From assembly GCA_027487835.1 (NCBI GenBank), contig JAIYCU010000005.1, positions 1-44,579 of the forward strand: 44,579 nucleotides of DNA, written 5' to 3'. The first letter of the stretch is position 1. Each line of letters opens with the position of its first letter. The notes beneath the pieces were generated by a model. That model saw only the letters and a program-made list of their open reading frames with translations. It was not told where the DNA came from and did not search any database. This DNA comes from Bacteroidota bacterium (GTDB lineage Bacteria; Bacteroidota; Bacteroidia; UKL13-3). A program made the translations under genes and the position numbers. Below, in pieces: positions 9,321 through 14,254 of this stretch.

Positions 9321-10052
9321 ATGAAGGATAGTATTATTTACGGAACCCATGCCGTTAAAGAAGCCTTGGACGCTGGTAAAGAACTTATCAAAATCCAAGT
9401 AATGAAAGGCATTTTTAACCCTGCGCTCGACGAATTGCTTAAAGCAGCTCGTGGGGCGCAGGTTCCGGTTCAAACCGTACCCAAGGAAAAATTCTTTAAC
9501 CTAAAGGATAAAAATCACCAAGGTGTAATGGCCTTTGCCTCTCCCATTACCTATCATAGCCTCGAACAAATTGTTCCTTCTCTATTTGAACAAGGTGAAA
9601 CACCATTTATCTTAATTTTAGATAGTATAAAAGACGTTAGAAATCTAGGAGCAATTGCTAGAACCGCACTTTGTGCAGGAGTCCACGCCCTTGTGGTACC
9701 GCTCACGGATGCCGCACCAGTAAATGAAGATGCAGTTAAAACTTCGGCTGGTGCCTTACACAAGTTGCCCGTTTGCCGAGAAAAGCACCTTAAGACCACA
9801 TTAGAATACCTTAACCAATCTGGGTTTACTACCGTTGCTTGCACCGAGAAAGGCAAAGACTCTATTAGTCAGACAGACCTTACCGGACCCCTAGCCATTG
9901 TAATGGGAAATGAAGAAACAGGCATAAGCCCAGAATTGCTTAAAAAATGCTCTGCACTCGCTCAAATTCCTATGAATATGGGTGTTAGTTCACTTAATGT
10001 TTCGGTAGCCGCCGGAATTATTTTGTACGAAGCACTTATGCAAAGAACTTAA
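9321..10052 (+). CDS. rlmB: TrmH/SpoU-family 23S rRNA 2'-O-methyltransferase (RlmB-type)
   Basis: A 243-residue SPOUT methylase. An N-terminal substrate-binding domain (YGTHAVKEAL, FFNLKDKNHQGVMA) leads into the knotted catalytic domain. The three family motifs are visible: DSIKDVRNLGAIARTA (about 95-110), IVMGNEETGIS (about 191-201) and IPMNMGVSSLNVSVAAGIILYEA at the C-terminus. RlmB methylates a guanosine in the 23S peptidyl-transferase region using SAM. Paralogues acting on other sites look alike, so the exact nucleotide is not certain. It lies 3 bases behind the DUF2723 gene. Its TAA shares the palindrome TTAA (10049-10052) with the stop of the convergent fusion gene. Confidence 0.88.
   Translation: MKDSIIYGTHAVKEALDAGKELIKIQVMKGIFNPALDELLKAARGAQVPVQTVPKEKFFNLKDKNHQGVMAFASPITYHSLEQIVPSLFEQGETPFILILDSIKDVRNLGAIARTALCAGVHALVVPLTDAAPVNEDAVKTSAGALHKLPVCREKHLKTTLEYLNQSGFTTVACTEKGKDSISQTDLTGPLAIVMGNEETGISPELLKKCSALAQIPMNMGVSSLNVSVAAGIILYEALMQRT
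9467..9477 (-). repeat. dispersed motif CGGTTTGAACC, copy 1
   Basis: Exact 11-mer on the minus strand, inside rlmB, read as codons GTT CAA ACC in the gene. It is one of six exact copies in the window. Confidence 0.7.
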
Positions 10053-11878
10053 TACAATACCCTAAATCTTAGGGTTTCAGTTATTCCCTTTAAATCTTCT
10101 ATGGCTTGGGCTGGATATGCCTTACTTACATCTGTAATTACGTAACCAATCAGTTCATTGGTTTTTAAATATTGACCCAAAATGTTTATATGATAAGAAG
10201 CCAAAATCCGATTTATTTGTGCCAAAACCCCAGGCTTATTCTCATGTATATGTATAAACCTATGCAACTGCTGCATGGCTGGCAAATGAACCAAAGGCAG
10301 GTTTAAACTGCCTTTGGTTTCGCCTGTATTTATATAGTTTAATATCGATTCACACAAAGAACTTGCAATATTATTTTGCGTCTGTTGGGTTTGAAGCCTT
10401 TCTCTAAATCCTACCTTTAAGTGTGCACTTTCTTTTAATAGTTCAAGTTTGTCCTCTTCTAAAATATCTGCATAAAAACCAGACAGTTTACCAACTTGCA
10501 TTGCCTTTCCAATGGCTGCAAAATCAAGATGCTCATCATATCCCAAATGCACAAAAATACTTCCTTTAGGCATTAAGTTAAGTTCTTTTGCTCCGATATT
10601 TAGTTGCCCTTCAAACCTTTTCCCAGCCACATTTACAAGCAGCTCACTCTTGCGCAATAAATCGGCTAAGGTCCTAACTTGTTTCGCATTTCCAATGGAA
10701 GGTTTTGCATCAACATCAAAATAAAAGACCTCTAAGCCTAAATGTGCAGCCAAAACAGACAATAAAGATCCGCTGTGCCCATACCCAATTATCCCAAGCC
10801 TTTTGCCAAACAACTCCTCTCTTTTGCTGCGCGTAAACTGCAATAAATGCAATAAAGCCAATTCTGCTACACTTCGGGTATGCGCATAACTACTGCCAAA
10901 GACAGCTATCCCCGCCTTGGCAAATTTTTGGTGGGTTTCGGTTTGAACCGATTCGCCCCAAACCCCAATTGCTAATACCCTATTCTTAGGGTCGAGAATA
11001 AATTTATTTAAACTTGCATGGGTGGCATTTTCAAAGGCAGGATCATAAATTAGTACATTTACCGCTGCCGCATTCTCACTCCGCTTTAATTGCCCAAAAG
11101 AGCCATACTTCTCAACCTGATAACCTTCGCGCTTAAATAATGCTTCTGCCTGCCAAGTGTTGGAGCCTATTAGGGAAGCGCGTATGCGCGATTTTGGATA
11201 CGAAATAGACATGGGTAAATGCTGCCTAAATAATATCTCATCTAAACTAGGCGCCACTTTAGCCGCTCTAGCAATTACGCTTGGCCTACTTATGTTTTCT
11301 GTATAGGCATAAAAGTCATTGGCCATACCCGATTCAAACACTTCAAAATCAGTAAAACCATCCCCAATCATTATCACGTTTCCACTAAGTTTAAGTTGTT
11401 TTAATAACTTTACTTTTCCTTTCTCTTGGGATAAAAAATTGGATTCGTCTGCCCCTATAATATTGTTCTTTTTGTCATAAATAAAAGTATTGGCAAACAC
11501 ACAACTTGCATCAATATGATACGACTTTACAATCGGTTCAATAAACTCCTTAAAACCCCCAGAAATAATTAATATCCTTCCTTTGTGTGCCTTAAAAAAT
11601 GGCTTGTTCTTAACAAAAGAAGGACTTACTCGCTTCCTGAGTTTATTTACCAATAAATTAATGTGATATTTCTTTGCAGATAATAAGGCAATTCGTGCTT
11701 TAAGCGATTTGCCGAAAGGCATCTTGCCCTCCATTGCCAGGTCTGTTAATTGCTTTATTTTTTCAATTAAATTGTCCCGTTCTGGATCATTCTCTAAACT
11801 AATGGCTGCTAACTCTTCCATGGCCTCCACTTGCGTGAAGGTGCTGTCAAAGTCAAATACATACCATGTTTCCTTCAA
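10049..11878 (-). CDS. SerB-type phosphatase fused to degenerate SerA-like domain and ACT domain
   Basis: This 609-residue fusion has three parts. Residues 1-215 are a HAD phosphatase of the phosphoserine phosphatase kind: DFDST at 9-13 (D9, D11), E18 and E22, R62, S106, a Lys at 153-157 and GDGFTD at 172-177. Residues 225-520 align with E. coli-type 3-phosphoglycerate dehydrogenase. The Rossmann motif GYGHSG (365-370) and D388 are kept. The substrate-loop Arg, the catalytic Arg (SRG is LGYDE near 446) and the catalytic His (PHIGGST is VGFRERL near 491) are missing. Residues 540-609 are an ACT domain retaining H545, N547 and N565, equivalent to the serine-binding residues of E. coli SerA. I infer a serine-responsive phosphoserine phosphatase rather than a bifunctional enzyme. 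The upstream T9SS-cargo gene ends one base before its start codon. Confidence 0.85.
   Translation of the reverse strand: MKETWYVFDFDSTFTQVEAMEELAAISLENDPERDNLIEKIKQLTDLAMEGKMPFGKSLKARIALLSAKKYHINLLVNKLRKRVSPSFVKNKPFFKAHKGRILIISGGFKEFIEPIVKSYHIDASCVFANTFIYDKKNNIIGADESNFLSQEKGKVKLLKQLKLSGNVIMIGDGFTDFEVFESGMANDFYAYTENISRPSVIARAAKVAPSLDEILFRQHLPMSISYPKSRIRASLIGSNTWQAEALFKREGYQVEKYGSFGQLKRSENAAAVNVLIYDPAFENATHASLNKFILDPKNRVLAIGVWGESVQTETHQKFAKAGIAVFGSSYAHTRSVAELALLHLLQFTRSKREELFGKRLGIIGYGHSGSLLSVLAAHLGLEVFYFDVDAKPSIGNAKQVRTLADLLRKSELLVNVAGKRFEGQLNIGAKELNLMPKGSIFVHLGYDEHLDFAAIGKAMQVGKLSGFYADILEEDKLELLKESAHLKVGFRERLQTQQTQNNIASSLCESILNYINTGETKGSLNLPLVHLPAMQQLHRFIHIHENKPGVLAQINRILASYHINILGQYLKTNELIGYVITDVSKAYPAQAIEDLKGITETLRFRVLY
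10939..10949 (+). repeat. dispersed motif CGGTTTGAACC, copy 2
   Basis: Exact 11-mer on the plus strand, lying antisense within the SerB-SerA fusion gene and flanked as TTTCGGTTTGAACCGA. Confidence 0.7.
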
Positions 11879-11879
11879 A

Positions 11880-12563
11880 TCAATTCTTTAGGAATTTTTG
11901 CACGATCATGCCCTTGTCTGTTTGAGCATAAAGGACATATAAACCATTGCCTAAATTACTAACATCTATGCTACTTTGCAAGATGCCGCCTTCTTGCGCT
12001 AATCTTCCGCTCAAATCATAAATTTTATATTCAGTCGGGTTTACGCCTCCAATGTACAAAACGCTGCTTGTAGGTATTGGATATAAACGATAATCATGCA
12101 CACTTAACTTTGGCAATCCAATGCCCAACCCATCATAATCAATGATAACACGTAATAGGTCTTGGCCATTAATTAAATTAGCACTTGTTACACCTTGTAA
12201 GTTTCCTAACTTAACTACAAATTCCTTCTTTCCCCAAAAAGTGCTATTAAGGGTGAAATTGTAACTAATTTTCTTGCGATTAGAAGAATCAAAAATATTT
12301 GTACCTACAGGGAAAATCCACTTTGAGGTGCTCATATTAAAATCTATACCAGCCCTCGCAGACCCATCGATAACAAAAATATCAGCACCTACACCAAATT
12401 CAAGTGTATCATTGTTTTCTGGCCACACTAATAATAATAGATGTGCCTTAGGGTCATTTACATTCCAATTATCATAATCTGCTTGGCCAAAACCAAACCT
12501 GGTTTGTGCATCCGCGCTAAAGGCAAGAATAACTACAGAAGCTATCAGTATAAATTTTTTCAT
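11880..12563 (-). CDS. small secreted protein with T9SS type A sorting domain
   Basis: A 227-residue protein with a clear signal peptide (MKKFILIASVVILAFSADAQ) ending in the usual AQ. A beta-rich body of about 125 residues has no recognised fold name. The C-terminal sorting domain runs from about 150 (YRLYPIPTSSVLYIGG, YKIYDLSGRLAQEG, GNGLYVLYAQTDKGMIVQKFLKN). It is probably exported and surface-attached or released by the type IX system. The body mentions no catalytic motif I recognise. It sits one base upstream of the SerB-SerA fusion on the same strand. The two are probably co-transcribed, although their functions look unrelated. Confidence 0.8.
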   Translation of the reverse strand: MKKFILIASVVILAFSADAQTRFGFGQADYDNWNVNDPKAHLLLLVWPENNDTLEFGVGADIFVIDGSARAGIDFNMSTSKWIFPVGTNIFDSSNRKKISYNFTLNSTFWGKKEFVVKLGNLQGVTSANLINGQDLLRVIIDYDGLGIGLPKLSVHDYRLYPIPTSSVLYIGGVNPTEYKIYDLSGRLAQEGGILQSSIDVSNLGNGLYVLYAQTDKGMIVQKFLKN

Positions 12564-12665
12564 ACAAGTTTATTTTGAATCAATCGCAAAAATCAGAATT
12601 ACAAGTTTAACAATTTATTTGATGTAAAAAAATCCAATTAGGTTGCAAAACAAGCTTTTGCCTAA

Positions 12666-14141
12666 TTATTTTTTTGCTTTGATAACAATAACCAAACGCT
12701 GGCCAATATAAACCACGTCATTTTCAAGATTATTGGTTGCTCTTATATCTTCTGTGCTCAACCCATAAATTCTTGAGATTTGAAAGAGGGTTTCGCCTTG
12801 TCGCACAATATGAACACCTGGGGTACTTTGCGCTTCCTTGGTGTCTGCACTTGTGATAGCAGGATTGATAATCAATCGCTGACCAGCCTCAATAGCATCT
12901 GTTGGCAATAAATTCAGATACATGATTGCATCCACCCTAATTCCATACTTCTTACCAATACTATAAAGTGTTTCGCCTTTCTGAACTGTATGAAAAAAAC
13001 TTAGGTTTTCCTTGAAATCATGCGTGCTGTCTTGCAAATTCAAAGCTTCAACGGGCTTACTCGTCTCAATATTCAATTGGGTATTCTCGTAAACTTTATT
13101 GTTATACGTTGTATCAATTTTTACTGGTTCAGAAACTTGAGCCGTATCTTTGTGCATAACCACCTCTATAATAGTCGCTGTAACCAATTTAGGTGCAACC
13201 TCACGCTTATTCTTTAAATTTATTATCTCGCCTAAGGCAGGCTGTTGCCCTAAAGTTATCAGGTTTCTTTCAAGCAGCTTATCTAGTCTAATGGCATATC
13301 GCTGGCTAATCCAATACATGGTTTCTGTGCCACTAACCGTGTGAAATGATGAATCCGATTTTTGTTTCTTGGATTTTAAGTAAACAGTATCTCCTTCCTT
13401 ACAAACAGCGTCCTTTTCCAAATCATTAAATCTGTAAAGTTGATAAACCTTTAAATCATAATTCAAGGCAATTTGAGCAAAACTCTCATTCGCCTTCGCT
13501 ATAACACCTGGCACTCCATTGTTTGTAAATTCTTTACCATGGCCTTTTACAATTTCTGCTTTGTCTTCTTTTAACTCCCTATCTTCCTCTTCACTCAATT
13601 TTACCCCATCAAACCGATGTAACTTATGCCTATCTATAAAGGTAATCAACAATTCAGCATACTGCGGATTAGTAGCGTACCCAGCCTTTTTTAAACCATA
13701 GGCCCATTCCTTATAATCTGTTCGGTCTAAATCAAATAAAAAAGCATACCGCGGATTATTCATTAAAAAATCAGAATGGTCTCTATAACTATCAATGGCA
13801 GCCTCATATTTTCTAAAACATTCTTGGGGCGCATCATCGTCCTCATAAATGGTTTTACCTGTCCAGGTCTTTTTACACTTAATGCCAAAGTGGTTATTAG
13901 CCTCCATAGCCAATCTGCTGTTTCCATTTCCACTTTCCAAAATTCCTTGGGCCAAGGTTATACTCGCAGGAATTTTACTCCTATACATCTCATCCACTGC
14001 AATAGCGCTATACTTTTCAATATATTGCTCCACTGTTTGTTTAGGTAAAACAGGTGGCTTAACTGTAATTGTATCGGTTTGACCCAACAATAACAGGGGC
14101 ATTAGACAGCTGAAAATAATTATGACTTTGTTTTTTATCAC
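12666..14141 (-). CDS. glucosaminidase-domain peptidoglycan hydrolase with LysM repeats
   Basis: After a signal peptide comes a glucosaminidase/FlgJ-type domain of about 150 residues. It contains ITLAQGILESGNGNSRLA, with the catalytic Glu in ILES, and the typical NNHFGIKCK and YATNPQYAELLITFI segments. The C-terminal half has LysM modules: two clear ones (FHTVQKGETLYSIGKKYGI and HIVRQGETLFQISRIYGL) and one or two weaker ones before them. It should cut glycan strands in the periplasm. The frame is open to ATG 14192, but an exact TACTTTTG promoter box at 14148-14155 lies inside that extension. The GTG at 14141 (or 14144) is therefore the better start and yields the clean signal peptide VIKNKVIIIFSCLMPLLLLGQ. 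Confidence 0.85.
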   Translation of the reverse strand: MIKNKVIIIFSCLMPLLLLGQTDTITVKPPVLPKQTVEQYIEKYSAIAVDEMYRSKIPASITLAQGILESGNGNSRLAMEANNHFGIKCKKTWTGKTIYEDDDAPQECFRKYEAAIDSYRDHSDFLMNNPRYAFLFDLDRTDYKEWAYGLKKAGYATNPQYAELLITFIDRHKLHRFDGVKLSEEEDRELKEDKAEIVKGHGKEFTNNGVPGVIAKANESFAQIALNYDLKVYQLYRFNDLEKDAVCKEGDTVYLKSKKQKSDSSFHTVSGTETMYWISQRYAIRLDKLLERNLITLGQQPALGEIINLKNKREVAPKLVTATIIEVVMHKDTAQVSEPVKIDTTYNNKVYENTQLNIETSKPVEALNLQDSTHDFKENLSFFHTVQKGETLYSIGKKYGIRVDAIMYLNLLPTDAIEAGQRLIINPAITSADTKEAQSTPGVHIVRQGETLFQISRIYGLSTEDIRATNNLENDVVYIGQRLVIVIKAKK

Positions 14142-14147
14142 CACCCA

Positions 14148-14155
14148 CAAAAGTA
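14148..14155 (-). promoter_or_regulatory. -7 box of the glucosaminidase-LysM gene
   Basis: On the minus strand this reads TACTTTTG, an exact TAnnTTTG. It lies 6 bases before the GTG at 14141, so the mRNA would be leaderless. It argues against the upstream ATG at 14192. Confidence 0.42.
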
Positions 14156-14254
14156 ATATTGTAAATTTGGCCGCCCACAGGCATTTTCTCACAATATTAT
14201 TACGATGTACACTTTAATAAGCAATCTATAAACGGTTTCAACTAGCTATTTACA

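Follow-up and report, generated by a model that had tools for sequence, protein, structure and literature searches.

Contig JAIYCU010000005.1 of the Bacteroidota bacterium assembly GCA_027487835.1, analysed here over positions 1–44 579 (the window), codes for a 609-amino-acid protein in which a phosphoserine-phosphatase-like HAD domain (related to SerB, the last enzyme of serine synthesis) is fused to a half related to phosphoglycerate dehydrogenase (SerA, the first enzyme), ending in an ACT domain. The catalytic residues of the SerA half are replaced, so that, to judge from its sequence, this half is almost certainly dead as a dehydrogenase, and the residues of its serine site are kept. The explanation that we favour, and consider moderately probable, is that the pseudo-dehydrogenase couples serine sensing to the phosphatase; it is the coupling that we infer. 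The source genome and family mentioned below are those of this assembly, and other genomes and loci are given by our G and L numbers where they have to be told apart.

Domains and predicted fold

Pfam recognizes in the fusion a HAD domain (best stretch, residues 7–180), the 2-Hacid_dh NAD (nicotinamide adenine dinucleotide) domain (351–479) and an ACT domain (542–603). The best NCBIfam match is SerA NF008759 with 237.4 bits, under the cut-off of 404, followed by SerB TIGR00338 with 78.7 bits, under the cut-off of 144.15; the cut-off of the HAD-SF-IB subfamily (TIGR01488), 45 bits, is passed with 63.8. An AlphaFold model built on 55 alignment rows has a mean local confidence (pLDDT) of 91.5 and a predicted template modelling score (pTM) of 0.77. 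Residues 228–609 of the model match 1yba, the active form of E. coli SerA (Z 38.4, root mean square deviation 2.6, 372 residues aligned), and residues 3–221 match 3kd3 (VIA-align; Z 29.3, deviation 1.8, 213 aligned). By this model the dead half should fold as a well-formed SerA.

Loss of the dehydrogenase active site

Residues were compared in an alignment of 150 sequences, including the fetched E. coli SerA as residue reference. Three active-site positions of E. coli SerA are replaced in the window fusion: R60 by D279 (in IYDPA), R240 by Y447 (in LGYDE) and H292 by R492 (in VGFRER). The fourth, E269, which forms the acid-base pair with H292, has become D476, a mild change; E occurs there in six of the 17 dead fusions of the source family (the dead clade, see below), and this position, next to an alignment gap, is placed with the least certainty among the four. 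The arm carrying E. coli W139 and K141 is deleted in all 17, with 18 residues fewer between R350 and E355 of the window fusion. Judged by R60, R240, E269, H292 and the arm of the neighbouring subunit, the window fusion lacks the active site of a SerA enzyme.

A first-pass annotation of the window had named the loop Arg, the Arg of SRG and the His of PHIGGST as lost. Alignment to E. coli SerA confirms all three, but the list was incomplete, the deletion of the arm having been overlooked. The motif GYGHSG and D388, described as retained, are so in the alignment. The NAD motif GxGxxG and its Asp correspond to G365, G367, G370 and D388; in the dead clade 16 of 17 members have G367, G370 and D388, and all have G365 and D471.

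The Grant review (PMC6300728), our source for the roles of the cationic residues, the neighbour-subunit arginine and the active-site histidine of SerA, places an aromatic residue at the bottom of the cleft and has the neighbouring subunit supply an arginine (human Arg134'). These would correspond to E. coli W139 and K141. According to the same review, certain type 3 SerA enzymes have a lysine where the catalytic histidine would stand; this is ruled out as a feature of the dead clade, where K is found in only two of the 17. An alignment error behind the missing residues is also ruled out, since pairwise phmmer, two MAFFT alignments and the pattern over the whole clade agree. The structural aligner yields ranges only, and its matches are hence not residue-by-residue evidence.

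Intact, dead and trimmed fusions in Bacteroidota

Fusions were searched for in 98 related genomes and in 395 genomes of the phylum, and of the 568 loci matched in named genomes the best 80 were added. The residue counts refer to loci fetched from the best-match lists (30 loci each from the 98- and 395-genome searches and the best 80 of 568) and do not constitute a census. Counted in the match listing, 25 of the 395 phylum genomes have an untrimmed fusion of about 630 amino acids, 11 a trimmed fusion and one, the source genome, a dead fusion.

Intact fusions are present in many families; the named carriers are Hymenobacter, Pontibacter, Algoriphagus, Echinicola, Runella, Salegentibacter and others. 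They have the same domain order as the window fusion and are about 39–45% identical to it over the full length, but differ from it in their intact dehydrogenase site and, in the three scanned, in exceeding the NF008759 cut-off. R60 and R240 are kept in 107 of the 108 untrimmed fusions from outside the source family, and E269, H292 and W139 in all 108; all four of R60, R240, E269 and H292 are together in 107. The dead fusions, of about 605 amino acids, were found in these searches only in the source family, in 17 genomes. None of them keeps R60, R240 or H292, and the comparison with other Bacteroidota SerB–SerA fusions suggested in the first-pass annotation thus reveals a clade-wide loss (0 of 17 against 107 of 108). 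The trimmed fusions, of about 430 amino acids and present in 12 genomes, lack approximately E. coli residues 112–301 at every position tested. What they retain is the HAD domain, the remainder of the substrate-binding domain with its last helix, and the ACT domain. A model of a trimmed form (pLDDT 76, pTM 0.52) is too weak to be used for claims on ACT packing. The NF008759 scores are 646–662 bits in three intact fusions, 566 in the half-changed fusion L024, 200–246 in three dead ones including that of the window, and 119–149 in two trimmed ones.

In a tree that a quick IQ-TREE run gave for the phosphatase and ACT columns of 73 rows, the dead fusions group as a single clade with SH-aLRT support of 100. 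The trimmed fusions need at least two origins, that of G070 standing apart, and L024 is placed apart again. The tree is compatible with either a shared or a separate first loss for the dead clade and the larger trimmed clade. The intact fusions are taken as the ancestral type, and the window fusion very probably descends from a SerB–SerA fusion with two activities; the order of events given below is a proposed one.

Some individual loci deserve mention. L024 (genome G081), the exception among the 108, is a half-changed, independent fusion with R60G and R240G and with H292 kept; its genome also has a short SerA beside serC. In the dead fusion L023 (G006) GNDYST has replaced GYGHSG, so that the NAD motif is missing as well and the decay of the dehydrogenase has gone further. 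The tree puts the single-domain phosphatases L187 and L188 (G319 and G377) among the fusions, on a long branch, as though a fusion had come apart again. L117, L144 and L166, fusions of Bacteroidota type, come from bins assigned to Latescibacterota, Nomurabacteria and Woesearchaeota, through misbinning or transfer.

Constraint on the two halves

Mean pairwise identity in the dead fusions (16 rows) versus the intact ones (22 rows) is 0.73 versus 0.54 in the HAD domain, 0.37 versus 0.65 in the substrate-binding part, 0.45 versus 0.68 in the NAD domain and 0.67 versus 0.63 in the ACT domain. By these shifts, constraint has moved away from the dehydrogenase, whereas the phosphatase and the sensor remain under it. 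The ratio of non-synonymous to synonymous substitution rates (dN/dS), a rough value here as synonymous sites are near saturation in most pairs, is about 0.01–0.1 in the HAD domain and 0.04–0.08 in the ACT domain of the computable dead pairs. In the NAD domain it is 0.08–0.22 in six of seven dead pairs (the computable ones); two untrimmed comparison pairs from outside the clade give 0.02 and 0.12, and a third was not computable. The dehydrogenase core is therefore still under purifying selection and does not drift freely. Catalytic loss across the clade, with a fold under purifying selection, is the pattern of a regulatory pseudoenzyme.

Within the dead clade, the column entropies at the positions of H292, E269 and R60 lie at the 57th, 91st and 66th percentile, that is, these positions are unconstrained, while G365, G367, G370, D388 and D471 are among the most conserved columns. 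New residues have become nearly fixed: G238 and W307 in 17 of 17, G308, D448 and R494 in 16 and Y447 in 14. Together with the kept NAD residues, this pattern is unlike plain decay. One explanation would be that the fused dehydrogenase is active on some substrate with a rebuilt site (W307, Y447, D448 and R494), and the near-fixed residues and the NAD residues kept in 16 or 17 of 17 fit this. We consider it highly improbable, as the positions of H292, E269 and R60 are free to vary, the proton donor has no substitute and L023 does without the NAD motif.

The same combination of kept NAD residues and new cleft residues gives ground for a two-input sensor, a speculative reading that we regard as possible but doubtful: the ACT domain would read serine, the NAD site and the rebuilt cleft (G238, W307, G308, Y447, D448 and R494) would read NAD(H) or another small molecule, and both would set the phosphatase rate. 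A redox or energy signal would in that case reach the final reaction of serine synthesis by way of a pseudoenzyme. An NAD signal to the phosphatase, as such, is possible, since at least 16 of the 17 sequences retain each NAD residue.

The ACT domain and its serine site

H545, N547 and N565 of the window fusion align with H344, N346 and N364 of E. coli SerA, at the same spacings of 2 and 18 residues, the latter as noted in the first-pass annotation. The trio is kept in all 137 fusions (17 of 17 dead, 108 of 108 other untrimmed and 12 of 12 trimmed). A figure of the Grant review (PMC6300728) shows three L-serine contact positions, 537, 539 and 557, with this same spacing, and a discussed passage concerns Asn364' of E. 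coli; in our own reading, 537 and 539 correspond to H344 and N346. The kept ACT domain is predicted to bind serine, and the fusion may form dimers through it. Besides the serine site, the window fusion shares with E. coli SerA (1yba, 1psd) the fold of residues 228–609 and the NAD motif; it differs in the replaced R60, R240 and H292, the mildly changed E269, the deleted arm and the N-terminal phosphatase.

The SerA half might instead be a structural scaffold only, its ACT dimer stabilizing the phosphatase and serine no longer being a signal. The dehydrogenase core evolves fast with its fold kept, and the trimmed forms are cut down to what holds the ACT domain, both as a scaffold would allow. 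However, dimer contacts alone are not expected to fix ligand residues, and the serine-contact residues are invariant in 137 of 137; moreover, of the 72 ACT columns 25 are invariant among 15 dead rows and 18 among 22 intact ones. On balance we find a pure scaffold rather unlikely.

The phosphatase half

The HAD catalytic set (the two Asp of DxD, a Glu, an Arg, a Ser, a Lys and the two Asp of GDGxxD), aligned with human phosphoserine phosphatase, is complete in the window fusion as D9, D11, E18, R62, S106, K155, D173 and D177, and is invariant in all fusions that hold these positions. The earlier list of intact motifs is correct for D9/D11, R62, S106 and GDGFTD, but not for E22: the active-site Glu is E18, because it aligns with E29 of the human enzyme. 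E18 is invariant in the 136 fusions holding that part, whereas at position 22 only 58 of the 108 intact fusions have E. Among PDB sequences matching the HAD part at E <= 1e-6, nine of 11 are named phosphoserine phosphatase or phosphoserine phosphohydrolase-like. The fusion is predicted from these residues and matches to be a phosphoserine phosphatase.

A different phosphate ester as substrate would make the serine logic wrong. The window fusion scores below the SerB equivalog cut-off, most fusion-less genomes of the family keep serC, and an algal HAD-IB phosphatase–dehydrogenase fusion, whose structure 6iuy is matched at 4.5e-9, is reported to make glycerol (PMC7468427). The TIGR00338 cut-off is exceeded by none of the fusions scanned, and in 0 of 25 fusion genomes compared with seven of 14 control genomes, so the model may simply miss this branch of SerB. 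Against another ester stand the names of the nine PDB matches, the residues aligned with human phosphoserine phosphatase, E29 and the catalytic set included, and the intact fusion of G071, which lies one gene from an aminotransferase with a weak SerC match. We judge another substrate to be improbable.

The G071 locus (L193, 2408–6624) is also of interest as a possible compact serine pathway. Read from its sequence, the gene between fusion and aminotransferase is ion-channel-like, and G071 shows no close short SerA.

Serine synthesis in the source genome and its relatives

The source genome has serC, followed by a gene for a 321-amino-acid SerA without an ACT domain (intact R, SRG and HIGGST) and by a DUF1015 gene; the next gene is presumably MazG-like. 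The separate serA whose presence the first-pass annotation had wished to see checked is therefore there, beside serC and with its residues intact. This short SerA (C35) is of the same superfamily as the fused dehydrogenase, and unlike it has an intact active site, no ACT domain and a gene of its own. It is predicted from its residues to catalyse the first step in the source lineage. At E <= 2e-69 it is found in 16 of 17 genomes with a dead fusion, 11 of 12 with a trimmed fusion, the L024 genome and 12 of 29 with an intact fusion; no further match is stronger than 3e-42. The 59 genomes counted come from the 98- and 395-genome searches and have a clear fusion; G365, with pieces only, was left out. 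Apart from G070, the short SerA adjoins serC in all genomes that have it. Genomes with a dead, trimmed or half-changed dehydrogenase thus have a separate SerA in 28 of 30 cases, versus 12 of 29 for the others (Fisher p 2e-5). With a separate SerA doing the first step, the fused dehydrogenase would be free to lose its activity; that the second SerA made it redundant fits these counts without being proved by them.

The fusion is the only strong SerB match in the source genome, three more (E 4e-6 to 8e-4) lying in frames of 659–845 amino acids.

Several observations weigh against serine coupling as we propose it. Counted by family, the tie between dehydrogenase loss and separate SerA is not strong (four of five versus four of nine, p 0.30). 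G034 holds a dead fusion and has no match to serC_1 or the short SerA, and the trimmed genome G360 is also without the short SerA. (As to an assembly gap as the cause in G034, the DUF1015 gene that stands near serC in the source genome is found there, but in G022, a genome of that genus, DUF1015 and serC are on separate contigs.) The gene is dispensable, being held by 17 of 64 family genomes, and by 15 of the 45 of good quality (at least 90% complete and at most 5% contaminated). A serC match, partial in some, is kept by 43 of the 47 fusion-less family genomes, and a credible SerB (TIGR00338, E <= 1e-8) is found in none of the 47. The six TIGR00338 matches in these genomes are five in frames of 834–861 amino acids, over part of the profile, and one stub of 89 amino acids. 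Another phosphatase may therefore do the last step there, and perhaps also in the source genome. Some genomes with a fusion also hold weaker single-domain HAD proteins, such as those of 225 amino acids in G022 (1.6e-8) and 230 in G009 (6.4e-8). Truncated N-terminal remnants (L203, L204 and L205, in G027, G045 and G011) stand at the same locus in relatives. All fusions scanned score below the SerB equivalog cut-off. Finally, the conservation of the ACT domain could stem from dimer formation alone.

The remnants, including the 89-amino-acid stub, adjoin the same gene for a protein sorted by the type IX secretion system (T9SS) as the full copies do, and the fusion gene is being lost in relatives. 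As an observation in its own right, serC without a credible SerB leaves the last step of serine synthesis unfilled in the 43 fusion-less genomes.

The remnants in three relatives, together with the lack of the gene in 47 of the 64 genomes of the family, incomplete ones included, might suggest that the fusion is itself a decaying relic. We give this scarcely any credence: the frame is open over the part held in 17 of 17 holders (that of G053 is cut by the contig end), dN/dS is low in the HAD and ACT domains of the computable dead pairs, and all phosphatase residues are kept.

A proposed mechanism of serine coupling

In the coupling that we favour, the starting form would be the two-activity SerB–SerA fusion that is spread over several Bacteroidota families. 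Once the ACT-less SerA encoded beside serC had taken over the first step, the fused dehydrogenase could have lost its activity, leaving a C-terminal pseudoenzyme that does not catalyse, still folds, probably binds a dinucleotide and ends in a serine-binding ACT domain. Serine at the interface of the ACT–ACT dimer would rearrange the chain and lower phosphatase activity at the last step, and the ACT domain would be kept because of this effect. In E. coli SerA, according to the review, serine at the ACT interface turns the substrate-binding–ACT unit against the NAD domain (PMC6300728). Here that unit would pass the serine state to the phosphatase, as ACT domains do in M. tuberculosis SerB2. The NAD domain, still situated between phosphatase and ACT domain in the dead clade, may add a nucleotide input. 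The 12 fusions without the NAD domain retain just the substrate-binding–ACT unit and the phosphatase, still joined, which independently supports a signal from serine to the phosphatase.

The first-pass annotation had proposed that the dehydrogenase became a scaffold relaying a serine signal, which moved feedback control to the last step. Its dead dehydrogenase stands as far as the sequence goes. The idea of a move is not fully accurate, because the intact fusions already carry the ACT domain on the phosphatase chain; what changed is the death of the dehydrogenase.

Phosphatases controlled by ACT domains are already known. M. tuberculosis SerB2 is a phosphatase with ACT domains that is inhibited by L-serine (PMC10564941). 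It resembles the window fusion in being a phosphoserine phosphatase tied to ACT, a likeness that on the side of the window comes from sequence, and differs in its two N-terminal ACT domains, the lack of a dehydrogenase remnant and an oligomer switch measured for SerB2 alone. The algal bidomain phosphatase–glycerol-3-phosphate dehydrogenase (6iuy) is likewise a HAD-IB phosphatase fused to a dehydrogenase, but its dehydrogenase is of another family and works (PMC7468427). A fusion of the first two steps of serine synthesis exists in oomycetes (PMC2705460). Among the literature matches listed, some available in part, we recognized no description of a SerB–SerA fusion or a dead SerA in Bacteroidota, nor of the architecture found in the window.

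Gene features and neighbourhood

The coordinates of the fusion gene and its features are given in table 1. The TTG start lies one base after the stop of the upstream gene for a T9SS-sorted protein.

Table 1. The fusion gene and its features in the window.
Feature	Position	Strand	Basis
Whole gene, 609 amino acids, TTG start: HAD-IB phosphoserine-phosphatase-like domain and dead SerA with ACT	10049..11878	-	Pfam, NCBIfam
Residues 1–215, HAD-IB phosphatase domain; D9, D11, E18, R62, S106, K155, D173, D177 kept	11234..11878	-	alignment, structure match
Residues 226–326, first segment of what was the substrate-binding domain; lowest conservation within dead clade (mean identity 0.37)	10901..11203	-	
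D279, position of E. coli R60 (substrate phosphate)	11042..11044	-	alignment
Residues 327–500, once the NAD-binding (Rossmann) domain; still has the NAD motif but not the catalytic residues	10379..10900	-	
Residues 351–354, site of 18-residue deletion removing the inter-subunit arm (E. coli W139, K141)	10817..10828	-	
G365–G370 (GYGHSG), nucleotide-binding motif	10769..10786	-	alignment
D388	10715-10717	-	alignment
Y447–D448, replacing R240–G241 of SRG; Y in 14/17, D in 16/17 of dead clade	10535..10540	-	
R492–E493–R494, replacing H292–I–G294; 492 free (N7 R4 Q4 K2), R494 in 16/17	10397..10405	-	
Residues 538–609, ACT domain	10052..10267	-	Pfam, alignment
Serine-site residues H545, N547, N565	10244-10246, 10238-10240, 10184-10186	-	

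The fusion gene (10049–11878, minus strand) and RlmB (9321–10052, plus strand) are convergent and overlap by four bases. On the other side (11880–14192), a LysM glucosaminidase gene and the gene for the T9SS-sorted protein precede the fusion. Flanks were read at 14 dead-clade loci (G058 and G053 were left out): 13 show this order, and the fourteenth, L208, stops at a contig end. As a functional clue the neighbours were rejected: their order is conserved, but shows no visible link with serine. None of the neighbour genes of the window stands beside the four trimmed fusions inspected.

Implications for how serine control may have evolved

Similarity may lead to proteins of this kind being called phosphoglycerate dehydrogenase despite the lost activity. 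Evolutionary intermediates of a feedback handle are rarely visible; here living lineages look like its stages: the intact fusion, the half-changed form (L024), the dead form of the window and the form with the NAD domain excised and the ACT domain kept. If the coupling of serine sensing to the phosphatase is true, a single ACT domain may control both steps in the intact fusions, and the source family would offer a testable case of a worn-out first-step enzyme turned into the serine sensor of the last-step enzyme.

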